Shown: one piece after another, positions 5,859-37,300 of the stretch
Layout: each line of letters starts with the position of its first letter
How positions within the stretch are numbered: position 1 is the stretch's first letter
Source: a virus
IMG/VR virus record: IMGVR_UViG_3300007775_000016
Coordinates: 1-40,738 of that record
DNA length: 40,738 bases
Direction: 5' to 3' (one strand)
Translations under genes and position numbers: made by a program
Notes under the pieces: generated by a model
Database searches by the model: none
Told to the model about the DNA's origin: nothing
What the model saw: the letters and a program-made list of their open reading frames with translations, nothing else

Positions 5859-6286
5859 TGGACTGTCACCCTGCGGATGCCGACCAGCATTCCATTCATG
5901 GCATCGTCGCGGGTATCCTCAACAGCATCAGACTGGAACGGGCGAGGGCCGAAGGCGCGCTGGGTGTGGGTGCCTTCGTGAATAACACCGGCAGCGGCAG
6001 CGGTATTGACAAGGAAACCCTCAAGCGGCCCTGCAGAGAGGCCATGCTTGGATTGTCCCGGCAGGATATAGCTCTCGCTGCGGCGGGTGTTGCCGGTGCG
6101 CACCGGTACGGGATAGCTACCAGGTGCATCACTGTTTGAGCCTGAAAGGTTGGCCTTGGATGCGCGGTGCGCGCGCAGCACCCATCCACGCACGCCTTTT
6201 TCGACAACGCCAAAGACAGCTGGCTCCAACCCTTTCAGGTAGTCCTCAATCTCGCGGGTGTCAGGCCCTTTGACGTTGATATGCAT
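5855..6286 (-). CDS. HK97 gp10-like tail completion protein
   Basis: A 143-residue protein. The central motif YPVPVRTGNTRRSES, followed by VNTAAAAGVIHEGTH and then FGPRPFQSDAVED, is the classic HK97 gp10-like pattern (VRTGxLRRS, then A.xxEFG or IHEG, then RPFLxxA). This protein closes the neck of the tail. It starts at a TGATG overlap with the previous gene. Confidence 0.8.
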   Translation of the reverse strand: MHINVKGPDTREIEDYLKGLEPAVFGVVEKGVRGWVLRAHRASKANLSGSNSDAPGSYPVPVRTGNTRRSESYILPGQSKHGLSAGPLEGFLVNTAAAAGVIHEGTHTQRAFGPRPFQSDAVEDTRDDAMNGMLVGIRRVTVQ

Positions 6287-6738
6287 CAGGTGGCGCTCTT
6301 ATCGAACGGTGAGGATGTCACCGCGCCGAAGCCGGGCGTTGATGTGGATGAGTCGGAGGCGGCTGTTGCCGATGGGATGGCGGCGAACTCGCGCTCGGCA
6401 TCAGCCTCGTACTGCGCCTTGCTGGCACGAATCTCACGGAGCAGAGCGGCGACTGCCGAATCCTCATGGCCGGATGAGGCGCTGTTGTCGATACGATTGA
6501 CACGACGCCGGCATAGCTGTGCACAGGCCAGATAGAGCTCTGCACTCTTCACATGCATGGCAACTACAGGATCGGATGAGGCGTACTGCGTAGCGCCGGC
6601 TCTCTCCTTCACCGTCTCGGTGATGCGATCGAGCAGCGCCTGGCCATACGTGGACCAGTCAGCAGTGGCGGCAGCACCGAACTGCTCGGCGCTGAAGCCT
6701 TCGGCCAGCAGGTCGTCGGGGCCGTTCTTCGTGGCCAT
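6286..6738 (-). CDS. Putative head-tail adaptor protein
   Basis: A 150-residue protein with a mainly helical first two thirds (TADWSTYGQALLDRITETV, DPVVAMHVKSAELYLACAQL) and a flexible Ser/Thr-rich tail. It follows the lysis genes and precedes the gp10-like protein, where Mu has gp36 (DUF1320-type adaptor). I do not see a decisive motif. It is coupled at both ends by TGATG overlaps. Function is by position only. Confidence 0.5.
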   Translation of the reverse strand: MATKNGPDDLLAEGFSAEQFGAAATADWSTYGQALLDRITETVKERAGATQYASSDPVVAMHVKSAELYLACAQLCRRRVNRIDNSASSGHEDSAVAALLREIRASKAQYEADAEREFAAIPSATAASDSSTSTPGFGAVTSSPFDKSAT

Positions 6739-7043
6739 CAGCCGAACCTCTTAACCATGATGTTTTCGATCGCGAACAGGCCGCGCGATCCCATGTGTCC
6801 GGCGATGCCGACAAAAGCGGCTGTGATCAGAGGCTCGAAGTTGCCAGCCTCGCAAAGCCAGAAGGTGATCACGCCACAAAAGGCGGACGTGAACAGCTCA
6901 CCGATCAGCTCAGTGAAGCTCCAGCGTGATACCAGCCCAGTCTTCACCTTCTGGTAGTAACTCACGAAACCACCCATGCCCGCCAGTGCGCTCATCCACA
7001 TATAGGTGATCAGAGAGTAGGTGGCTGGATCCTTCTCAGGCAT
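6738..7043 (-). CDS. Holin, LydA-like (superfamily III type)
   Basis: A 101-residue membrane protein beginning MPEKDPATYSLITYMW. It has three hydrophobic segments (about 10-28, 48-65 and 75-90) and ends in the motif AAFVGIAGHMGSRGLFAIE, which matches the GIaGHmGxR signature of LydA-type holins. I chose the ATG at 7043 because it overlaps the preceding stop by 8 nt (ATGCCTGA). A second holin-type gene precedes it, so one may act as antiholin. Confidence 0.75.
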   Translation of the reverse strand: MPEKDPATYSLITYMWMSALAGMGGFVSYYQKVKTGLVSRWSFTELIGELFTSAFCGVITFWLCEAGNFEPLITAAFVGIAGHMGSRGLFAIENIMVKRFG

Positions 7044-7614
7044 TGCCGCCTCCAATCCTTGAAGCGATGGTAGATAGAAGGCTGGATGGCTTCGATCCGG
7101 CGGCGGTCTGTTTGTCCTGGCTGCGCTTGTGAACAGTGATGCCGAGAACGGCCAGAGCCACGTTCCAGAGCATGGTTAATCCGGCAATGGCATTGATGGC
7201 GGCGGCGGCCTCTGCGGGCTTCCAGAGAATGAGGATCGTGACACCAATCATCTGAACGCCGAATGAGATGGCGACGATATAGCCGAAGGTGGCGCGCCAG
7301 CGGCTGTTGTATGGATCTTTGCTGGAGAGTTCGGCGCGCATGGTCTCGTTCACAGCCACAATTCGCTTGGTGCCCTCCTGCTTATCGACAATCCGCTCCT
7401 CGATCAGCTTCTCCTGCAGCTTGGCGGCAAGTTCAGGGTTTTCGGAGATGGCAATCTGAGCAGCATGAGGGCTGCCGGTGCCTGTGACCTCTTGTGCGAA
7501 ATCGACCACCTGTTCGGCAATTTTCTCGCCGCCATCCCCAAACAGCTTGCCGACAATGGTGGGGGCGACATTGCCGAGGATGGATGCGGCGATTCCGATA
7601 AGCGGTAGCGGCAT
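7036..7614 (-). CDS. 3TM-type holin
   Basis: A 192-residue protein. It starts with an amphipathic stretch (MPLPLIGIAASILGNVAPTI), then a soluble helix, then SSKDPYNSRWRATFGYIVAIS. The R-P/W-region followed by two hydrophobic helices (GVQMIGVTILILW, LTMLWNVALAVLG) is the pattern of the 3TM_holin / gene-transfer-agent holin family. It makes lesions in the inner membrane at lysis. It lies directly downstream of the endolysin gene. Confidence 0.78.
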   Translation of the reverse strand: MPLPLIGIAASILGNVAPTIVGKLFGDGGEKIAEQVVDFAQEVTGTGSPHAAQIAISENPELAAKLQEKLIEERIVDKQEGTKRIVAVNETMRAELSSKDPYNSRWRATFGYIVAISFGVQMIGVTILILWKPAEAAAAINAIAGLTMLWNVALAVLGITVHKRSQDKQTAAGSKPSSLLSTIASRIGGGNA

Positions 7615-7616
7615 GG

Positions 7617-8114
7617 CTATACCTCCAGAAACTCGGCGGCTCGGTTGAGCCAGCCGGCGGCGAACTTCGCCTGTGAGTGATCGTTGCTGATGATCTGACC
7701 GTAGAAGCGGATGCGACGGGAGAGCACGGCGAGATAGATCTCGCCAGCATCACCGCGATTAACTGCGATCAGTGTGACCGGTCCGATCTTCCCGTCAGCG
7801 GTTACCTTCGCAGCCTGCTGCAGCCACTTGGCGGCGCGTGACGGGCCGTGGTTGACACCACAATCGACCACAAGGCCGCGCAGTGGCTCATTCTCAATGC
7901 GATCGAAGTGCGGATCCTTGATGTAGCGCTCTTCGTAGATCATGGCTGCGGTCATCTCGGAGAGGTTCTCGACATCGGCACGGGTAGCAGGGCGACCCAG
8001 ATGCTCGGAGAGCGTCGCCTGTGTGATGCCATGATTTGTGGCGCCGCCCCGGTCGTCCGGGTCGTCCACAAAGCCGCCCTCTCGGCGGATGATGTCGCGA
8101 ATGATCTGCTGCAT
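7617..8114 (-). CDS. Endolysin, GH108 N-acetylmuramidase
   Basis: A 165-residue muramidase. The N-terminal motif REGGFVDDPDDRGGATNHGIT is the diagnostic ExGGxxxDPxDxGGxTNxGIT signature of glycoside hydrolase family 108, with E12 as the likely catalytic acid. The C-terminal half (KVTADGKIGPVTLIAVNR, then RIRFYGQI) is the peptidoglycan-binding type 3 domain. There is no signal peptide, so release depends on the neighbouring holins. The lysis cassette sits unusually between capsid and tail-joining genes. Confidence 0.92.
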   Translation of the reverse strand: MQQIIRDIIRREGGFVDDPDDRGGATNHGITQATLSEHLGRPATRADVENLSEMTAAMIYEERYIKDPHFDRIENEPLRGLVVDCGVNHGPSRAAKWLQQAAKVTADGKIGPVTLIAVNRGDAGEIYLAVLSRRIRFYGQIISNDHSQAKFAAGWLNRAAEFLEV

Positions 8115-8120
8115 GCCCTT

Positions 8121-8381
8121 TTATACCTTCGTGAAATCCACGTAGAACTGATCGCCGACATTTAGCGAGCCGAACAGAGCAGGGTTGGCGATCGTCATCT
8201 GCAGATCGGCAGTTGGCGTGAATCTGGCGAAGGTGTTGTTTTCATCGGAACCGTCGTCCGGATAGCCTTCACTGCGGCTTACGGCGCGGAATGAGACATC
8301 CTCGGAACACTTCTTTTCTTCATGGTCGAGGATCTCTTTCACTCCAGTGACTTCCATCTTGGCTCTCATCAATGCAGACAT
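8121..8381 (-). CDS. Conserved small phage protein of unknown function
   Basis: An 86-residue protein: MSALMRAKMEVTGVKEI..., then ENNTFARFTPTADLQMTIANP and VGDQFYVDFTKV. I recognise the pattern (FxxxTPsAxLxMTIxNPxLxGxxxxGDxFYVDFTP) from many tailed-phage head/lysis regions, where it has no known function. A strong ribosome-binding site (AAAGGAGAATGCC) precedes the ATG. It lies between the CxxCH gene and the endolysin. Confidence 0.75.
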   Translation of the reverse strand: MSALMRAKMEVTGVKEILDHEEKKCSEDVSFRAVSRSEGYPDDGSDENNTFARFTPTADLQMTIANPALFGSLNVGDQFYVDFTKV

Positions 8382-8402: not shown

Positions 8403-8455
8403 CTTCTCGAAACGGGCCTCGGCGCGCTTTGAGAAGCCGCCCGGTTGCCCGGGCG
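8403..8455 (-). other. Tandem stem-loops between CxxCH gene and small phage gene
   Basis: Two inverted repeats sit side by side. CTTCTC at 8403-8408 pairs with GAGAAG at 8431-8436. CGCCCGG at 8438-8444 pairs perfectly with CCGGGCG at 8449-8455 around a 4-nt loop. There is no T-tract on either side, so an RNA stability or attenuation structure is more likely than an intrinsic terminator. There is no gene in this ~90-nt gap. Confidence 0.5.
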
Positions 8456-8471
8456 ACGCTGTCCCGATGAG

Positions 8472-8888
8472 TCAGTGATCAGGAGTTGGTAGGCCGATGG
8501 ATGCGATGGCCACGGCGGTTGAGTGTTTCGACATGCTCTTAAAGTTCTCCGAGCCAGCGCCAATATGCGCAGATCGATCAACTGATGTTTTGCGAGCAGG
8601 ATCGAGAGCGACAGTTTTTGTAAGGTCGCGGATGGAGGGCAGGCCTCCCATCGTTTGGGTGGCGGCCAATGCCATGCCGAAACCTTCATCGGTGTCACTC
8701 ATGGCCAGTCGTGTTGATTCGCCAGTGCTTTTCATCGACATGGAAATGGTGTCTGTCGGGTCACCTGTTGAGTGACAGACGATGCAATCGCCAGCAAGCG
8801 CTGGCTGCGGCGTGCATGCCATGATCGCAACGGCTACAAACAGCAACAGCGTGATCAGTAGTGGCGGATTAAAAAGTGATTTTTTCAA
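8472..8888 (-). CDS. Exported protein with one c-type haem motif (CxxCH)
   Basis: A 138-residue protein with a signal peptide: MKKSLF, a hydrophobic core at residues 9-24, then ACTPQPALAGDC. Cys25 could be a lipid-anchored cysteine (IMAC), or cleavage could follow ALA at 30-32. Straight after comes CIVCHSTG with C35, C38 and H39, the haem attachment motif of c-type cytochromes, and Met50 and Met52 follow as possible axial ligands. The rest is Ser/Thr-rich with no clear fold. The start is TTG with a good ribosome-binding site (AAGGAG, 7 nt away). I know of no standard phage gene with this motif here. It may be a cargo gene, or CxxCH may bind metal instead. Confidence 0.7.
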   Translation of the reverse strand: MKKSLFNPPLLITLLLFVAVAIMACTPQPALAGDCIVCHSTGDPTDTISMSMKSTGESTRLAMSDTDEGFGMALAATQTMGGLPSIRDLTKTVALDPARKTSVDRSAHIGAGSENFKSMSKHSTAVAIASIGLPTPDH

Positions 8889-8922
8889 TGCTTTTCTCCT
8901 TCGATTTTATTTAACAGGGATA

Positions 8923-8944
8923 GGAGCGGCCCGAAGGCCACTCC
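8923..8944 (-). terminator. UUCG-capped hairpin after the capsid gene (weak terminator or stabiliser)
   Basis: On the minus strand GGAGTGGCC and GGCCGCTCC form a 9-bp stem with one wobble or mismatch around a TTCG loop, 13 nt after the capsid stop. The sequence after it (TATCCCTGTTAAAT) has no real T-tract. It may end some transcripts or protect the abundant capsid mRNA 3' end. Confidence 0.5.
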
Positions 8945-8956
8945 GTTTCTCCCCTC

Positions 8957-9916
8957 TTATGCCAGCGCGATCCGGCGTACCTGACCGGAGTCACCGATCA
9001 CGGCATTGTGCTTGCCGCGCCAGTCGTACTCGGTACCACGTACCTTGGCGTTGCGTGCCTCTTCGGCATTCAGCGCTTCCCACTCTGCGGACTGCAGGGT
9101 GTGACCAGGCAACACAACGTAGGTGGATGCAACCTTGCGAGAGATGATGATCTCATCGATATCGGTCATAACCTGCCCGTTGTTGTTGTTTGGATTCTCG
9201 AAACGAGCCGCAAGCGCCTTAGCAACCACACCGCCGTTGATGCGGTTGTTGGTGACGATCTTCATTGGAACACCCTCATCCACGCCCAACTTGTCGCCGA
9301 CTGCCTGCAGGATTGCATCAGCAGCCTTGTCGATGGTCTTCTCAACTGTGGTATCGAAAGCGACATCAATACCAGCGCCCAGTGCAGTAAGCAGACCGTA
9401 GTGGTTGCTCGCTTCAAGGTGCGCGTACTTGCGAACGGCAGATGCGAACAGCTGGTCGATCTTGTAGAACTGGTTGAAGCGCAGCCAGTTGTCTTCGATG
9501 GTCATGCCAGCGGCATATTCAAGGAAACCAACAGAGCTGGTGGCGGTGGTGATTTTGCGAGACTTCGACTCTTCACCCGGCTTGATCTGGGCGAAGGTGA
9601 TGCCGTTGGATACATCCAGCACATCGAAGGTCGGCGCGGCCGAGTCTGTCATGTCAAGATGATCAAACAGGCGACGGAAACCGAAGTCAGGCAGACCTGT
9701 CTCGCCGAGAGACTCGGTAACCAGCACCTTTGATGGCTGGCCTGCCAGGTTCGGATCATACGCATTGCGGATGCTCATCGACGGGCTGCGCAGCTTGTTA
9801 AACTGCTTGTTGACGGCACCGATGAAGAGATTTAACGCTTCCTCGTTGCCTGCGAATGCACCGTCGCGCGCCGCAGCGGCGATATCGATGCCCATTTTAC
9901 CTTTAAACTTTTTCAT
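8957..9916 (-). CDS. Major capsid protein
   Basis: A 319-residue protein placed after protease, scaffold and decoration protein. It begins MKKFKGKMGIDIAAAARDG. Internal segments such as LPDFGFRRLFDHLDM, the E-loop-like KPGEESKSRKITTATSS, and the C-terminal SRKVASTYVVLPGHTLQSAEW fit a Mu/HK97-fold capsid. The following hairpin is consistent with a highly expressed structural gene. Identity comes from order, size and these patterns; I cannot run a fold search. Confidence 0.8.
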   Translation of the reverse strand: MKKFKGKMGIDIAAAARDGAFAGNEEALNLFIGAVNKQFNKLRSPSMSIRNAYDPNLAGQPSKVLVTESLGETGLPDFGFRRLFDHLDMTDSAAPTFDVLDVSNGITFAQIKPGEESKSRKITTATSSVGFLEYAAGMTIEDNWLRFNQFYKIDQLFASAVRKYAHLEASNHYGLLTALGAGIDVAFDTTVEKTIDKAADAILQAVGDKLGVDEGVPMKIVTNNRINGGVVAKALAARFENPNNNNGQVMTDIDEIIISRKVASTYVVLPGHTLQSAEWEALNAEEARNAKVRGTEYDWRGKHNAVIGDSGQVRRIALA

Positions 9917-9931
9917 GATTCTGAACCCTCC

Positions 9932-10279
9932 TTACAGATTCACTTCGTTGGTTAGATGCATCTGCACCACAGTGGCAGCCGAAGCAGCATCTTCAGTGGC
10001 CACACCACACTTGGTGTTGGCCGTAGAGGTCTTGGTCATCACCTTGGCGGTGTTGTCCCAGTAGAGGGTGTCACCGGCGCTGATCACCAGTGGAGCCTCT
10101 TTGGGTGCCTCGATCTCGGCTTCGTGAACGAACACGTTCTCCGCATTAGCGGCGGTAGCATTCAATGCCACCAACACGCGAGCGCGCAGTAGTTCGATCT
10201 GGGTTGCCAACAGCTCTGCTGTATGGGCGAACTTCATGGTTTTCCGGTTCAGGCCGGACGTTACGGTTGCAAGTGCCAT
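9932..10279 (-). CDS. Capsid decoration protein (DUF2190-like)
   Basis: A 115-residue protein. ISAGDTLYWDNTAKVMTKTS followed by KCGVATEDAASAATVVQMHL is the DUF2190 pattern (GDxvYwDxxxxxvTxT...GxaxeaAaaGdtvV.V.L). Proteins of this family trimerise on the outside of the capsid to stabilise it. The gene lies directly before the capsid gene and after protease/scaffold. Confidence 0.82.
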   Translation of the reverse strand: MALATVTSGLNRKTMKFAHTAELLATQIELLRARVLVALNATAANAENVFVHEAEIEAPKEAPLVISAGDTLYWDNTAKVMTKTSTANTKCGVATEDAASAATVVQMHLTNEVNL

Positions 10280-10282
10280 GGT

Positions 10283-10720
10283 TTACTCTCCTTCCTCGTT
10301 GATATATTTGTTTTTGTCTTTGGCTGCCGAATCATCGGCAGTGCCATCAGGTTTCAGCTGATCCTTGGCGTCAGATAGCTTCTTCAGCTGGCTGGCCTCG
10401 GCAGCAAGCTGCTCATCAGAGAAGCCGGCATAGATCGCTTTCGCGGCTGCGACATCATCATCCGAGTCACCGGTCATCTTCAAAGCGCGGCGGGCAGACA
10501 CGATGCTGTCCAGTGCGGCTTCGCGGGCACTCTGGCGGGCGGCCAGAGCGGCCTTGATATCGTCAACAGATGTGTCGCCGATGGCGGCCTTGAGCTGGGT
10601 CAGCTCGGTGTTGGTGGTTTCAAGCTTGGCGACTACGTCGTCGAGCTTGTCCGCCTTGGCCTGAAGTTCATCAATATTTACTCCGGCCTCTTTCAACTGG
10701 GCTTTCAGTTTTTCCAACAT
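10283..10720 (-). CDS. Nested scaffold protein (internal in-frame start)
   Basis: An in-frame ATG inside the protease gene is preceded by AAAAAGGAGG with 8 nt spacing, one of the best ribosome-binding sites in the window. It would give a 145-residue protein starting MLEKLKAQLKEAGVNIDEL, which is exactly the scaffold half. This is the arrangement of lambda C/Nu3 and many ClpP-type head genes, where excess free scaffold is made from an internal start. Confidence 0.75.
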   Translation of the reverse strand: MLEKLKAQLKEAGVNIDELQAKADKLDDVVAKLETTNTELTQLKAAIGDTSVDDIKAALAARQSAREAALDSIVSARRALKMTGDSDDDVAAAKAIYAGFSDEQLAAEASQLKKLSDAKDQLKPDGTADDSAAKDKNKYINEEGE

Positions 10721-11512
10721 GGTTGGTTCCTCCTTTTTGTGCCCTTGATCTCGCTGGCCGGAGCCAACGGAAGTGGTATCGAGCGGAATAAGCAACTCTG
10801 CTGGCTTTCCGTCGATTAACGCTTGTTTCATTGCGGGTGAGATCATCTGGTTATCAGGCCTCTTGCCTGCCTTGAACATTCCCTGAAACTCTTCGGGAAC
10901 ATTTTTAATGCTGTTCATGATGCGATTAGAGAAGCTGTTCTGCGCTGTATCCTGACGGGCAATGAAATCAATACTGTCGGCAAAACCCATCTCCACGGTT
11001 TCTGCGGCGGTGAGCCATGTTGTTGCCGACATCATGGACTCGATCTCGTCGCGCTGGATGCCTGTGCGCGCGGCGTAGGTCGCAACAATAGAGTCACGGT
11101 AGATGTCCATCACATCAGCGGCTTTGCGCATCTCTTCAGCGGTGCCTACTGCGCCCCCCCATGGATCGTGGATCATAAAACGTGCGTTTTCTGCGATGCG
11201 AATGGTATCTCCGGCCATAACAACCACAGTTGCTATTGAAGCGGCGAGTGAATCGACCTCCATGTCGATAGCGGCAGGGTGCTTACGAAAGGCGTTGAAG
11301 ATGGCAATGCCTTCATCGACATAGCCGCCAGGAGAGAATACGCGAACCCTGATGCGTGGAGCATCAATGTTGTTCAGTTGTGCAATCAGCTCTGATGCCC
11401 AAATGCCCCAGCCGCCGATCTCATCATAGATGAAAATCTCCGGCACATCGTCAGCACTATTTTTAATGCTGTACCAGCTACGCTGTTTATTCTTTCCGGC
11501 TGCTTTTGCCAT
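10283..11512 (-). CDS. Capsid maturation protease (ClpP-type) fused to scaffold
   Basis: A 409-residue protein. Residues ~20-200 are a ClpP-like serine protease: SPGGYVDEG at 60-68 (oxyanion loop), catalytic Ser92 in DSLAASIATVV, and His115 in FMIHDPWGG. The C-terminal half (about 265-409) is charged and coiled-coil-like, as in scaffolds. It cleaves scaffold and capsid precursors inside the procapsid. A second start with a very strong ribosome-binding site lies inside the gene at 10720 (see the next entry). It is separated from its neighbours by only a few bases. Confidence 0.9.
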   Translation of the reverse strand: MAKAAGKNKQRSWYSIKNSADDVPEIFIYDEIGGWGIWASELIAQLNNIDAPRIRVRVFSPGGYVDEGIAIFNAFRKHPAAIDMEVDSLAASIATVVVMAGDTIRIAENARFMIHDPWGGAVGTAEEMRKAADVMDIYRDSIVATYAARTGIQRDEIESMMSATTWLTAAETVEMGFADSIDFIARQDTAQNSFSNRIMNSIKNVPEEFQGMFKAGKRPDNQMISPAMKQALIDGKPAELLIPLDTTSVGSGQRDQGHKKEEPTMLEKLKAQLKEAGVNIDELQAKADKLDDVVAKLETTNTELTQLKAAIGDTSVDDIKAALAARQSAREAALDSIVSARRALKMTGDSDDDVAAAKAIYAGFSDEQLAAEASQLKKLSDAKDQLKPDGTADDSAAKDKNKYINEEGE

Positions 11513-14353: not shown

Positions 14354-16270
14354 TTACCGCCTTTGGCTTCCACACGCAAAGGCATCGTTGCCGCCGATGG
14401 AGTCGGAGAGGATGCGATTGATCATCATGGCGCGATCGGCATCCACGGGGTGGTCGTTTTTGTTCGGGTAGCTCTTCCAGCGTGGCCCCTGCCGATAGAC
14501 CTGCGATGTGTAGATGTTCACCAGCTCCGGATCGAGCGGGTACTGGCCGAGGCGGCGCTGCATGGATTGCAGCAGTAGATCGGAGCCGAGCTCCTTGCCG
14601 TTGCAGCGAAGAGGCTTGTTGGATTTACGATCGAGAATCTGCTCACCATCGAGATCCACAGCATCAAAGGCGGAGCCAAACTGGATCGGCATGATTCGAT
14701 TCTCGAAATCACGATCACGGTAGCGCTCCTCCTTGTGCAGCATGCCGATGACCGTGCGGCCGGCATTGCCGCCATCGATACCCCAGCATGGTCGCTCGGC
14801 ATGCGGATCGATCAGGTGATCGAGAGCGGTGAGAAATTCGGCTTGCATGTGATAGTCGACACCTTTCATGTGGATGCGTGTATGGCGTCGCATGATGCCG
14901 CCGCGCTGCTCGCCGACCATGAGCTCTGTCGGATCCTGTGATTCACCCAGATCGGCGCCGGCCCAGTGATCGCCATCCCGAATATGGCCGAAGGCCTCGA
15001 AGATGATCCGCTCGGCAATGTCGCGCCATGCCTCGTGGCCATCCCAATCAGGCACTGGCTCGGTGCGCTCAAAGATGATCCGCTCACGGCCATCGCCACC
15101 CTCGATCTGTTCAAAGTCACACAGCTCCACCGATATCTCGCGCTCACTGCGGTTGGCGACCACCTTGAGGCGGCGATACTCGACAATGTTGACCAGGCAT
15201 GAAACCAGCGTGACATAGGGGAATACGCAGTTGGCGCGATCGCCATCTCGCCCCAGTACATTCTGCTGATAGCCGGGAGAATCCTCGCCGCCGAAATCCT
15301 TGATGAACTCGCGACGGCGCTCATCCGACCAGAACGGCTCCGGCATCAATGTCTTCGCCCAGTTGAACAGCACGCGTGGTGGTTTACCTTTGCCGGTGAA
15401 TCCATGCGGGTAGCGCTTGCGGAACTCTTCCCATGGCATGGAATCGTTATTGCGTCGGTAAAATTCACAGTCCCTGTCACCATCCGGCACAGAGTAGGTG
15501 CCCCATGTGGCGGTCGGTTTCAGGGCGCGGCGAAACTCGCTCCAGTGTTTGGATGCTTTCAGCAGGGCTGCCTCTTCAAGTAGCCCGAGTGCGTTGACAT
15601 GGATACCACGAAAGGATGCGCCGGCAATGCCACCTGGTCGGAAGTGGAGAATGCCGCGCCCGTCTCCATGGGTGAATGTCATCTTGTGGTAGGGTGCTTT
15701 CTGGTGCCACCCCTTCTTGCACATTCTTTGCAGATGCGGATTCAGCTCAAATTGCTCGCAGATGGCGTCGATGATGTCGGTCAGGTGTCCCTGCAGTGGC
15801 GCACCAACGATCGACTCCACACGGCGCATCGGTTGGCCATGCACATCGAGCAACTCCAGATTGTGCAGGGTGGATGAGCTCCAGAGCAGCTTGGTGATGA
15901 TTTCGCGGGTCTTGCCGACCTCGGCACCATCCTTGTGCTGATAGTCGCCCTGCCGATAGTTGACCGAGGCCAGCTGGTAGCCCCAGAACTCATACGGCTG
16001 CATGGTGTCCGGCTCAATCAGATTGAGGTTGGCCCAGAGGTGAGGGCGGGCATTGGTGAGCATCCATGCGTAGTGTTCAATGTTGAGCTGCTTGCCATCG
16101 GTGCCGTAGTAGTCGCCTCGCAACAGACCTTCGAGATGCAGCCCTTCAGGCGCATCCACCACCTCACCGAATGCATTCACAAAGGCGCGCTGGCGGCTAA
16201 GGGTGGACTCAATGCTTCGCTGCATCAGATCGGTATAGTTGACCAGCTGGGTTGATTTACGCGGCGGCAT
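14354..16270 (-). CDS. Terminase large subunit
   Basis: A 638-residue packaging motor protein. The ATPase half is divergent: a GAEVGKTREIITK segment looks like the Walker A region and LLEEAALL like Walker B. The C-terminal nuclease half is clear, with WAGADLGESQDPTELMVG (first Asp of the RNase H-like site), GIDGGNAGRTVIGML and HPVDADRAMM. I start it at the ATG of MPPRKSTQLVNYTD because AGGAGA lies 4-8 nt upstream. A plus-strand toxin-antitoxin module begins directly upstream, so the two promoters diverge. Confidence 0.85.
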   Translation of the reverse strand: MPPRKSTQLVNYTDLMQRSIESTLSRQRAFVNAFGEVVDAPEGLHLEGLLRGDYYGTDGKQLNIEHYAWMLTNARPHLWANLNLIEPDTMQPYEFWGYQLASVNYRQGDYQHKDGAEVGKTREIITKLLWSSSTLHNLELLDVHGQPMRRVESIVGAPLQGHLTDIIDAICEQFELNPHLQRMCKKGWHQKAPYHKMTFTHGDGRGILHFRPGGIAGASFRGIHVNALGLLEEAALLKASKHWSEFRRALKPTATWGTYSVPDGDRDCEFYRRNNDSMPWEEFRKRYPHGFTGKGKPPRVLFNWAKTLMPEPFWSDERRREFIKDFGGEDSPGYQQNVLGRDGDRANCVFPYVTLVSCLVNIVEYRRLKVVANRSEREISVELCDFEQIEGGDGRERIIFERTEPVPDWDGHEAWRDIAERIIFEAFGHIRDGDHWAGADLGESQDPTELMVGEQRGGIMRRHTRIHMKGVDYHMQAEFLTALDHLIDPHAERPCWGIDGGNAGRTVIGMLHKEERYRDRDFENRIMPIQFGSAFDAVDLDGEQILDRKSNKPLRCNGKELGSDLLLQSMQRRLGQYPLDPELVNIYTSQVYRQGPRWKSYPNKNDHPVDADRAMMINRILSDSIGGNDAFACGSQRR

Positions 16271-16291
16271 ATTTTCTCCTGATAATATTAC

Positions 16292-16319
16292 TTGCGTTGT
16301 GTACCTTATGTGGTACACT
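16292..16319 (+). promoter_or_regulatory. Promoter and operator of the HigBA-like module
   Basis: A -35 box TTGCGT (16292-16297) and a -10 box TACACT (16314-16319), 16 nt apart, lie directly before the toxin ATG. Between and over them is a perfect inverted repeat GTGTACC-ttatgt-GGTACAC (16299-16318), a good candidate operator for the antitoxin. The expected transcript start (about 16326) coincides with the ATG. Confidence 0.6.
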
Positions 16320-16325
16320 CTCCCC

Positions 16326-16676
16326 ATGAACGACGAGATGATCCTTGATGTAGTCTTCTTCCGCACCGAATCCGGCAACGAGCCGGTTCGTGAATGGTTG
16401 CGTGAGATGGCTGCTGCTGATCGCAAGTCGATTGGCGAAGATGTTCAGACCGTGCAGTTCAGATGGCCGCTTGGCATGCCTCTTGTTCGCAAGATGGAGA
16501 CCGGACTGTGGGAAGTGCGTTCCAAGGTTTCTGATGGACGCATCGCTCGCGTGTTTTTCACTGTCATTGACCGTGAAATGGTGTTGTTGCATGGCATCAT
16601 TAAAAAGAGCCAGAAAACGGCGGCGGGAGATTTGGAGCAAGCAAAGGATCGACGCAACAAATGGAGGAGAGGATAA
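16326..16676 (+). CDS. HigB/RelE-type toxin (phage Gp49-like family)
   Basis: A 116-residue protein with the phage Gp49-like/HigB pattern: EWLREMAAADRKSIGEDVQ, WPLGMPLVRKMETGLWEVRSK, then ARVFFTVIDREMVLLHGIIKKS and a C-terminal KDRRNKW. Such toxins are mRNA interferases of the RelE fold. The toxin-first order followed by a HTH antitoxin is the HigBA layout. It has no Shine-Dalgarno sequence and may be read from a leaderless mRNA. As a plus-strand island between terL and the methyltransferase, it looks like an inserted cargo module. Confidence 0.82.
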   Translation: MNDEMILDVVFFRTESGNEPVREWLREMAAADRKSIGEDVQTVQFRWPLGMPLVRKMETGLWEVRSKVSDGRIARVFFTVIDREMVLLHGIIKKSQKTAAGDLEQAKDRRNKWRRG

Positions 16677-27977: not shown

Positions 27978-28143
27978 GGCATGCCTCCTTGATTCCAGCG
28001 GCCTCGAAATCGAGGGCTGTCATTTTTCTCTCATGGCCACAGCGCCCTTTGCATCTGCGCGTCACCGATTCGTCCGTATGGACCACATAGGTCACGGGGC
28101 CTGCGCAGTACGGGCACGTGGTTGGGTAGGTTGGTTCAGGCAT
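27970..28143 (-). CDS. Zinc-ribbon mini-protein, copy 2
   Basis: A 57-residue protein: MPEPTYPTTCPYCAGPVTYV, then HTDESVTRRCKGRCGHERKM and TALDFEAAGIKEACHA. CPYC and CKGRC give a four-Cys zinc ribbon. It is nearly identical to the protein at 29286-29462 (differences mainly at residues 5, 9, 16, 18 and the C-terminus). It follows the carrier-Gp37/68 fusion with an 8-nt overlap. It may bind nucleic acid or act as a small adaptor. Confidence 0.85.
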   Translation of the reverse strand: MPEPTYPTTCPYCAGPVTYVVHTDESVTRRCKGRCGHERKMTALDFEAAGIKEACHA

Positions 28144-29293
28144 TGGGCCACTCTTTATGCTCAACGCCATCGAGCAGGCATCCGGCGGCTTTTTTGCCGA
28201 CTCTATACATGCTTTGAGTGCCTTCGATGCAACTACACCCAAGAATCCACTCATGAGGGTTTTCGTGAAACTCTCCGCAGAGAATGTCTTCATCATCTGA
28301 CTCATCAGGAGACCATTCACCCCACTGTTTGAAGAAAAACGGCACGCCAGAGGCCTTGCACTGGTCGCGCAGGCTTCGCGCCCAATCCGGATGCATCGGC
28401 CTTGCCTTCGGGCCTGATTCGCCTCCAACGACAACCCAATTAAGGCGTTGATCGCCTGTAACCCCTCGTAGATATGACCGACAGTGATATTTACCATCAT
28501 AGGCACTTGGTTCACTTGATGATTCTCCGCCGGACACATCGTTTTGTAGCGTTATATGTCCAAGCAGCGGCTCTGCACTGATCCACCGCACGGATGCCGG
28601 TGTTTGAAGTAGCAGCGGAATCCGCTCATCGGCTGTTGCCTGATCTTCGACCGATACGCCAAGCCAGACGTTTGGAACAACCGGAAGTTGAGATAGTAGG
28701 CTGTGCATTCTTTTAGGTCGTTTTGTCAGCACTTGAAACGTGTGTTGGGAAGCGTTGTTCATAATCGAAAAAACCAATATGATAAACTCATCCGGCACAT
28801 CCTCATGGAACAGGTCGGACATGGAGTTGACGAACACCATGCGTGGACGCTTCCACCTTAAAGGCTGCTCCAATCGCTCTGGATGGCACTGTACGTCCGT
28901 GAAACCTCTACCGAAGGCCACATGCTTCGGGTTGGCCGACAGACGCGGCCAGATACGCTCGGCATAGCAGTGCTTGCAGCCCTGCGAAACCTTTGTGCAG
29001 CCAGTGACCGGATTCCATGTCTCATCTGTCCATTCGATCTTTGATTTGCTCATGTTCTCCATGATGTAGCCGATGACGTGGTCGACGGTCTCCATCTTAC
29101 GGATATCGCTATCGGCGATGCGCAGAGAGAAACGCTCTTCCAGATCCAGCTCCAGCATGGTGAAGTCGAGCGAATCAAAACCGAGATCATCAACCAGGTG
29201 ATGATCCTTCCTGACATCCTCCGCGCGACCACCATGGATACACTCGGCAACCGACTCCTTCACCCGCTGTTCGATCGTCAATACATCAGCCAT
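28136..29293 (-). CDS. Acyl carrier domain fused to Gp37/Gp68 (DUF5131) protein
   Basis: A 385-residue protein. Residues 1-80 are an acyl carrier domain: HHLVDDLGFDSLDFTMLELD with Ser41 in DSL, then LEERFSLRIADSDIRKMETV and VDHVIGYIMEN. Residue 81 is the Met that would start a normal Gp37/Gp68 protein (MSKSKIEWTDETWNPVTGC). This second part carries the three-Cys motif C-x6-C-x2-C (CTKVSQGCKHC), then MVFVNSMSDLFHEDV, PNVWLGVSVEDQATADER and GGESGPKARPMHPDWAR. There is no stop or shift between the domains. GGAG lies only 3 nt before the internal ATG, so separate internal initiation is possible. Confidence 0.88.
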   Translation of the reverse strand: MADVLTIEQRVKESVAECIHGGRAEDVRKDHHLVDDLGFDSLDFTMLELDLEERFSLRIADSDIRKMETVDHVIGYIMENMSKSKIEWTDETWNPVTGCTKVSQGCKHCYAERIWPRLSANPKHVAFGRGFTDVQCHPERLEQPLRWKRPRMVFVNSMSDLFHEDVPDEFIILVFSIMNNASQHTFQVLTKRPKRMHSLLSQLPVVPNVWLGVSVEDQATADERIPLLLQTPASVRWISAEPLLGHITLQNDVSGGESSSEPSAYDGKYHCRSYLRGVTGDQRLNWVVVGGESGPKARPMHPDWARSLRDQCKASGVPFFFKQWGEWSPDESDDEDILCGEFHENPHEWILGCSCIEGTQSMYRVGKKAAGCLLDGVEHKEWPNA

Positions 29294-29787: not shown

Positions 29788-30305
29788 TCCACCCGCCCTA
29801 CGGGCCAGAGCACGGGAACTCGATCATAAGGCTGATAGAGGGGGTGTGCCGGTTCGCCTGACTTAGAGATGTTAAGTGCATGCAAAGTGATGTTGTGGAG
29901 CCCCAGAATCGCCCGTACACGCTCGGAGCGATTCAGGTGAATACCATGATTGCCCCATGCGCAGACGATCATGGCGGCGCCCCTGCTCTCTTCGATGATC
30001 ACGGCATCATTATCAGGGCCGACAGGGTCATCCTGTGCCTTCATGTCGGCCGGCTGAGTAGCCCTGAAGGCAAACAGGTTGCAGACCACCAGCCCGCCAT
30101 ATCCCATCGATCGAGCGCGCCGCTCGCAGCGTTCCACGGTCGGATCGTTTTGCAGCTCATCGGCCGTGGATGGGTTGAGCATCAGAAACATGCAGATGCC
30201 TTTCGACTTATCCCACACCCGCCACAGCTTGTAGCGGTAGCGCTCACAGTCCGAGAATGTGGCGCCGGTAGTTCCGGTCAGGGTGTTATGCTCGCGGGTG
30301 ATCAC
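29784..30305 (-). CDS. DUF1643 family protein
   Basis: A 173-residue protein with the DUF1643 pattern: CERYRYKLWRVWDKSKG, FLMLNPSTADELQNDPTVER, RARSMGYGGLVVCNLFAFRA, then VCAWGNHG. The biochemical role is unknown; it often travels with phage and island cargo. I choose GTG at 30305, which overlaps the Gp37/68 stop by GTGA with GGAG upstream. An in-frame GTG at 30323 is the alternative. Confidence 0.85.
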   Translation of the reverse strand: MITREHNTLTGTTGATFSDCERYRYKLWRVWDKSKGICMFLMLNPSTADELQNDPTVERCERRARSMGYGGLVVCNLFAFRATQPADMKAQDDPVGPDNDAVIIEESRGAAMIVCAWGNHGIHLNRSERVRAILGLHNITLHALNISKSGEPAHPLYQPYDRVPVLWPVGRVE

Positions 30306-31339
30306 GCCTGAATCTCCGGCCACGCTTTATGCTCAACACCATCGAGCAGGCTGTAGCCGAATGACTTCTTGCCTGCCCTCACCATATTGTTGTTGACGTT
30401 TACGATATCTGCGCCGTTTTCGTAGAACTTTCCACCAGACCACGCGCCGATGCGACCATGGTGTCCACTTGATACAGGGAACCACTCACCCCACTGCTTG
30501 AAGAAAAACGGCACACCAGCGGCTTCGCACTGATCGCGCAGTAACCGCGCCCAATCGGGATGCATCGGCCTAGCCCTCGGGCCGGATTCGCCGCCGACGA
30601 CGACCCAATCGAGACCCAGTTCATCAGATGTGCCTGTTCCGTAACAATGCGGACATCCATTCGCACCGGTGTCGTATTCGTAATATTCACCTTCAGCACA
30701 GCGGGAGCATTCTGAGTACGCCAACCCATCAAGTGTAAGATCAATTCCACCAAGCAGCGGCTCAGCACTGATCCAGCGCACAGCGGCGGGTGTCTGTAGC
30801 AACAACGGAATGCGCTCATCGGCTGTTGCCTGATCCTCGACGGATACGCCAAGCCAAACATTTGGCAGCGGAAAAGAAACAGGCCAAACTCTTTCTCTAT
30901 CAAAGTGCGTAATGAAATCCAGCATCCTATCTGGCCGTTTAGTTAAAACCTGAAAGGTGTGGCTTGGAGAGTCAGCCATCACATCGAAAACCCGCTCAAT
31001 GAAATCGAACGACACATCCTCATGGAATAGATCGCTCATGGAGTTGACGAATACCATACGTGGACGCTTCCAGCGTAGCGGATGCTCAAGACGCTCTGGG
31101 TGGCACTGTACGTCTGTGAACTTGCGTTTGCACGTCCAATGTCCAGTAACATCTTTCGGTCTGATGTATTCATGGGGAATGCAATCAGCTTCAGGGGTTG
31201 GAACGCAAACCTCCTGCTTACCATAAAACCGAGGCCAGATGCGCTCGGCATAGCAGTGCTTGCATCCTTGGCTGACTTTGGTGCAGCCGGTGACCGGGTT
31301 CCAGACTTCGTCAGTCCATTCGATCTTTGATTTTGTCAT
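30302..31339 (-). CDS. Gp37/Gp68 family (DUF5131) protein, free-standing copy
   Basis: A 345-residue protein starting MTKSKIEWTDEVWNPVTGC. C19, C26 and C29 (CTKVSQGCKHC) make the three-Cys motif that resembles an iron-sulphur or radical-SAM-type site. Shared blocks with the fused copy include MVFVNSMSDLFHEDV, HTFQVLTKRP, PNVWLGVSVEDQATADER and GVPFFFKQWGEW. Unlike that copy it has a CxxC...CxxC insertion (CSRCAEGEYYEY ... CPHCYGTG), a possible zinc finger. It is preceded by the repeated 74-bp leader and a ribosome-binding site (GGAGGGG). Confidence 0.88.
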   Translation of the reverse strand: MTKSKIEWTDEVWNPVTGCTKVSQGCKHCYAERIWPRFYGKQEVCVPTPEADCIPHEYIRPKDVTGHWTCKRKFTDVQCHPERLEHPLRWKRPRMVFVNSMSDLFHEDVSFDFIERVFDVMADSPSHTFQVLTKRPDRMLDFITHFDRERVWPVSFPLPNVWLGVSVEDQATADERIPLLLQTPAAVRWISAEPLLGGIDLTLDGLAYSECSRCAEGEYYEYDTGANGCPHCYGTGTSDELGLDWVVVGGESGPRARPMHPDWARLLRDQCEAAGVPFFFKQWGEWFPVSSGHHGRIGAWSGGKFYENGADIVNVNNNMVRAGKKSFGYSLLDGVEHKAWPEIQA

Positions 31340-36958: not shown

Positions 36959-37300
36959 ATGAAACGAATTTTACTATCTATCATGGCAGCGGGTGTGATG
37001 TCCGGCTGTTCAGCCGAGCCGCCAGATTGTTCTGATGCCAGGACAACCAAGCTGGTTACAGATATCGCCATGAAAGAGATCAAGAAAGAGCCGCGATGGA
37101 CACCTGCAGAGTTGAAGAAGATTGTCTTGTCACTCGACATGATCCGAACCACCGACATCAACAAGGATACAGGCATGAAATCGTGCGCGGCTGATCTCGT
37201 GTTTACTTACGAATCAAAAAACATGAACACGTCGATCACCTATACATCAGAGATGACGGATGACGAGCAACAGCAGGTCGTCACCGTGTATGGGTTGTGA
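36959..37300 (+). CDS. Lipoprotein, probable lysogenic cargo gene
   Basis: A 113-residue protein with a lipoprotein signal: MKRILLSIMAAGVMSGC with Cys17 as the lipidated residue. The mature part is charged (CSDARTTKLVTDIAMKEIKK, WTPAELKKIVLSLDMIRT) with a beta-like end. It follows the repressor in the same direction, 14 nt after its stop, with GGGGGAAGGGG before the ATG, and is followed by a strong terminator. So it should be expressed in lysogens. A role in superinfection exclusion or host envelope change is plausible but not shown. Confidence 0.75.
   Translation: MKRILLSIMAAGVMSGCSAEPPDCSDARTTKLVTDIAMKEIKKEPRWTPAELKKIVLSLDMIRTTDINKDTGMKSCAADLVFTYESKNMNTSITYTSEMTDDEQQQVVTVYGL

Follow-up and report, generated by a model that had tools for sequence, protein, structure and literature searches.

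A predicted envelope protein encoded beside the lysis genes of a temperate phage, with a CxxCH motif that its only detected relative lacks

The window, that is the whole stretch of 40,738 nucleotides analysed here (IMG/VR record IMGVR_UViG_3300007775_000016), encodes a 138-aa protein at 8472-8888 on the minus strand. Our preferred reading, which is held tentatively, is that of a small exported envelope protein, most likely lipidated on C25, which would be made late from the first gene of an inserted lysis cassette and would act at lysis, its CxxCH motif being incidental. Observed directly were selection on the coding sequence, the position of the gene, the conservation of its start codon, ribosome-binding site and hairpins, and the lack of the motif in the relative.

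Genomic position, relative and expression signals

The window, a virus record, belongs to a temperate, contractile-tailed phage; its genes include those for a sheath, tape measure, baseplate hub, portal, head protease, integrase and CI-like repressor. In the order of transcription the region of interest encodes the head protease (10283-11512), a decoration protein (9932-10279) and then, all on the minus strand, a 319-aa capsid-position protein (8957-9916), the 138-aa protein (TTG start, stop codon at 8472-8474), an 86-aa protein (8121-8381), an endolysin with GH108 and PG_binding_3 domain matches (7617-8114), a holin-like protein with a GTA_holin_3TM match (7036-7614), a LydA-type holin (Phage_holin_3_3 match, 6738-7055) and a neck/connector-like protein (6286-6738). 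The capsid label of 8957-9916 was given because the gene is located after those for the head protease and decoration protein; its product matched only a PHROG of unknown function, and no solved structure matching it was found. The sole match of the 86-aa protein was to the C-terminal part of phrog_6978 (284 aa). In Microcystis phage MACPNOA1 and in five relatives that are more distant, the connector lies directly behind the capsid gene; the gene order therefore indicates that the 138-aa gene, the holins and the endolysin are one inserted cassette, which separates the capsid gene from the next head gene. A location flanked by the capsid-position and lysis genes agreed with the preliminary description of this DNA, which gave no strand, and so did the view that the product is not a standard head protein.

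Several other features of the window were recorded. A 690-aa protein in the terminase position (14354-16426, minus strand) has a Walker-A-like GAEVGKT and an AGADLG motif, lacks a PHROG or Pfam match and is likely to be a divergent large terminase. Two DUF5131 (phrog_2045) proteins are encoded on the minus strand at 28136-29293 and 30302-31339, the first of which has a fused N-terminal acyl-carrier/phosphopantetheine-like domain (PF00550, 4e-5; phrog_5934). Directly behind the CI-like repressor gene, on the plus strand at 36959-37300, is a 113-aa lipoprotein-like ORF (starting MKRILLSIMAAGVMSGCSAEPPDC, lipobox MSGC) which had no match in Pfam or PADLOC and is a candidate lysogeny-stage exclusion lipoprotein.

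Only one relative of the 138-aa protein was found, a 125-aa ORF at L005:1235-1612 in IMGVR_UViG_3300009506_001867 (labels L005, L008 and L016). This ORF is also directly behind a capsid-position gene, occupies the same slot and shares the TTG start, the type of Shine-Dalgarno sequence and the presence of hairpins on both sides. The two proteins were 39% identical (BLASTP, E 4e-22), and their mature parts alone scored 13 standard deviations above shuffles; the capsid-position proteins were 91% identical. A pattern of the conserved C-terminal block matched only two contigs in IMG/VR, those of the window's DNA and of L005, and two more protein scans added none. IMGVR_UViG_3300026196_000025 was the same DNA as the window in the fetched stretches (100%, ~11 kb) and provides no independent evidence. 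In L005 the gene is followed by an M15 endolysin gene without the 86-aa gene; the endolysins are swapped in the same place, a GH108 muramidase (window 7617-8114) for an M15 peptidase (L005:1757-2140), with a homologous LydA-type holin retained.

Over 115 aligned codons the two genes differed by 29 synonymous and 60 non-synonymous changes, giving a dN/dS of ~0.28 with dS near saturation (Nei-Gojobori), and codon changes at positions 1, 2 and 3 numbered 51, 40 and 70 respectively. This concentration at third positions indicates that both copies encode a selected protein and that the gene is real, beyond chance. The LydA holin and connector genes show about as much divergence as the 138-aa gene, unlike the capsid-position gene (dN 0.05, dS 0.52), which suggests that a recombination boundary probably lies just behind the capsid-position gene; as its divergence matches the lysis side, the 138-aa gene would share the history of that side rather than being a fresh arrival.

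A TTG start with a good ribosome-binding site had been described previously, and both were borne out: the Shine-Dalgarno sequence AAGGAG (8896-8901, minus strand) is located 7 nt upstream of the TTG, and both elements are conserved in L005. Hairpins, also described previously, flank the gene on both sides, and likewise in L005. The hairpin between the capsid-position gene and the 138-aa gene (8916-8954, minus strand; z -2.95 for the stretch) recurs in L005, where the main stem keeps its pairs (9/9), one pair has changed on both sides in a compensatory way and one G-C pair has become G-U; this covariation, from two sequences and one two-sided pair, is suggestive rather than proof. The hairpin after the gene (8436-8457, minus strand; z -3.76) has a 9-bp GC stem and its L005 counterpart a 10-bp GC stem of unrelated sequence, with z below -3.7 in both. 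Neither window hairpin qualifies as a consensus intrinsic terminator, there being no consensus U-tract; a search for a sigma-70-like promoter found none and Rfam gave no match. It is plausible, as proposed in the preliminary description, that the hairpins could set the level of the 138-aa gene apart from that of the capsid.

Sequence features and the haem motif

The 138-aa protein starts with MKKSLFNPPLLITLLLFVAVAIMACTPQPALAGDCIVCHSTG and has a predicted signal sequence at residues 1-24 (MKKSLFNPPLLITLLLFVAVAIMA; 8817-8888, minus strand), within which residues 8-24 form a strongly hydrophobic, signal-type stretch. In the AF2 model (pLDDT 42.5) only a helix at residues 8-25 was confident; since the conserved capsid-position protein also modelled badly (pLDDT 32.7), this low confidence is no evidence of disorder. 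The candidate lipidation cysteine, C25 (8814-8816, minus strand), ends the sequence AIMAC in the window protein and AMVAC in the L005 protein, and is followed in both by an identical TPQPALAG. AIMAC25 matches a broad lipobox pattern and not the strict [LVI][ASTVI][GAS]C, from which each of the two proteins is one residue off. A secreted or lipid-anchored product, as previously predicted, is consistent with these features, lipidation being only probable. The hydrophobic maximum of the protein is its N-terminal signal, and there is no C-terminal segment of membrane length.

Conserved in the L005 protein were the lipobox cysteine, ACTPQPALAG, C35, H39 and a C-terminal AHIGAGS block (residues 107-123, AHIGAGS...KS.S..S; 8520-8570, minus strand). 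C25, the following eight residues and C35 are invariant and the hydrophobic core drifts; the invariance of ACTPQPALAG.C behind a drifting core would be best explained if the mature protein began with a lipidated C25.

Searches with the 138-aa protein gave no match in Pfam, PHROGs, NCBIfam, PADLOC or the PDB, and no cytochrome, spanin or other family was recovered; tblastn in phages and plasmids gave nothing. A PDB match to the two-copy profile (E 1.1) was attributed to chance. One genome contig match (L003) was spurious, being a rhodanese-like ORF which matched through the peptide KKSLFNPP; the contig scan used exact peptides of the 138-aa protein alone, and a relative as distant as L005 would escape it.

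The motif that had attracted attention is CIVCH, at residues 35-39 (8772-8786, minus strand). A CxxCH is carried by 3 of the 388 window ORFs of at least 40 aa and arose by chance in 0.13% of shuffles of the 138-aa protein. The BLASTP alignment is free of gaps from residue 7 to 47 and sets DCIVCH against SCTAFH in the L005 protein, in which C35 and H39 are retained and C38 is lost, and no further CxxCH was found elsewhere in the L005 protein. The change of residue 38 from Cys to Phe (TGT to TTC) takes two base changes and is therefore not a single sequencing error. The preliminary description had held that homologues without the motif would mark it as accidental, and the only relative found (n = 1) is of this type: the homology search recovered a protein that keeps C35 and H39 without the second haem cysteine, and the c-type haem motif, while present, is not conserved. 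The suggestion of a redox cargo protein loses its basis with CTAFH in the relative and no cytochrome family match in Pfam (even at E<=10), NCBIfam or the PDB.

With holocytochrome c synthase, replacement of the second haem cysteine leads to little or no haem attachment (PMC4158909). Recognition by Ccm is essentially of the CXXCH motif, and in most circumstances haem is attached by E. coli Ccm to proteins with CXXCH (PMC4158909); CcsBA is stricter still (PMC8112865). As the L005 protein reads CTAFH, the relative should carry no covalent haem. The 138-aa protein itself could still receive haem, since most CXXCH proteins reaching the periplasm are substrates of Ccm. The CxxCH probably arises incidentally, from C35 and H39 being conserved and residue 38 variable.

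The L005 gene has a 7-residue insert next to a short repeat. The sequence GGGCAGGATGCC occurs twice in L005, one copy adjoining the changed codon and the other following closely after the gene, with no further exact copy in the L005 contig or in the window. The longer unit, GGGCAGGATGCC(C/A)GAATGCCG, at L005:1349-1400 and L005:1680-1700, inside and just behind the homologous gene, resembles a small interspersed repeat beside the seven-codon insert.

Candidate functions

Under the preferred reading, the protein would be produced late from the structural operon, the timing following from gene order, and would be exported and then lipidated on C25, as its N-terminal sequence predicts. It would act in the periplasm or at the outer membrane at cell lysis, and may fill the role of the outer-membrane component which the cassette otherwise lacks. 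Among the proteins of this phage, the 138-aa protein appears to be the strongest candidate for the envelope step of lysis, being the product of the first gene of the lysis insert and the only protein with a likely lipobox detected in the late region. The spanin-like role at lysis raised in the preliminary description may hold: the gene is part of the inserted lysis cassette, but no inner-membrane spanin partner was seen. The outer-membrane spanin subunits lambda Rz1, P2 LysC and T4 PseT.2 are small lipobox proteins encoded at the lysis cassette with a further conserved cysteine, as the 138-aa protein probably is, but its gene differs in being separate and before the endolysin, rather than behind or inside an i-spanin gene, with no partner and no family match. 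By published criteria (PMC6139136) it was placed neither among the o-spanins, no partner with an N-terminal membrane segment having been found, nor among the u-spanins, the C-terminal membrane segment of that class being absent.

The main rival is a receptor-blocking lipoprotein of the T5 Llp/Cor type, which would be produced during infection, reside in the outer membrane and stop superinfection and the loss of new virions to cell debris; we consider this a minor possibility. T5 jams FhuA with Llp, a small periplasmic outer-membrane lipoprotein (PMC9586334), and the 138-aa protein resembles Llp and the Cor family as a small exported, lipoprotein-like protein with a likely lipobox, no recognisable catalytic domain and no i-spanin partner. 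It differs from them in heading a lysis cassette, whereas llp adjoins the receptor-binding gene, and in having no sequence similarity to any known family; moreover, the other lipoprotein-like ORF of the window, beside the repressor (36959-37300), is better suited to a lysogeny-stage role. A true o-spanin whose inner-membrane partner is a host protein or is encoded elsewhere is unlikely. The probable lipobox, the further conserved cysteine and the place in the lysis cassette would fit, periplasmic cysteines are usual in two-component spanins (PMC6139136), and phage L020, which has a similar LydA holin, carries an Rz-like i-spanin in its cassette. No i-spanin candidate with an N-terminal transmembrane segment was found in or overlapping the cassette of either the window or L005, however, and the conserved cysteine is near the N-terminus, away from the C-terminal contact site. 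Distinctly unlikely is an unlipidated periplasmic or virion-linked protein secreted through signal peptidase I. The PALA/G33 site satisfies the -3,-1 rule and is conserved in L005, yet a CTPQPALAG that is invariant while the core drifts is better explained as part of a mature protein behind C25.

That the protein is a phage single-haem c-type cytochrome, or another haem-carrying envelope protein, whose relative lost the site secondarily, is very unlikely. The 138-aa protein is like such cytochromes in having one CxxCH directly behind a signal sequence, a motif seldom reached by shuffling, and might be open to haem attachment by Ccm; M52, a methionine aligned in both proteins, is a possible second ligand, cytochromes have been reported in a putative prophage (PMC4914508), and because the GGGCAGGATGCC repeat adjoins the changed codon, the loss of the second haem cysteine in L005 could be secondary. 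It is unlike them in the loss of the motif in its relative, a change which in the system tested leaves little or no haem (PMC4158909), and in the lack of a family match. A combined reading, a haem-carrying lipoprotein of the lysis cassette matured by the host Ccm, with the site lost from the relative after insertion of the adjacent repeat, is highly improbable.

The 138-aa protein is new as a sequence and ordinary as a kind, an orphan phage protein that probably belongs to the envelope. For phage proteins with a lone CxxCH, relatives should be checked before a cytochrome or a metabolic gene is called. A recognisable outer-membrane lysis protein is missing from many phage genomes (91/677; PMC6139136), and under the preferred reading a lysis cassette of this type would gain a conserved, orphan envelope protein.
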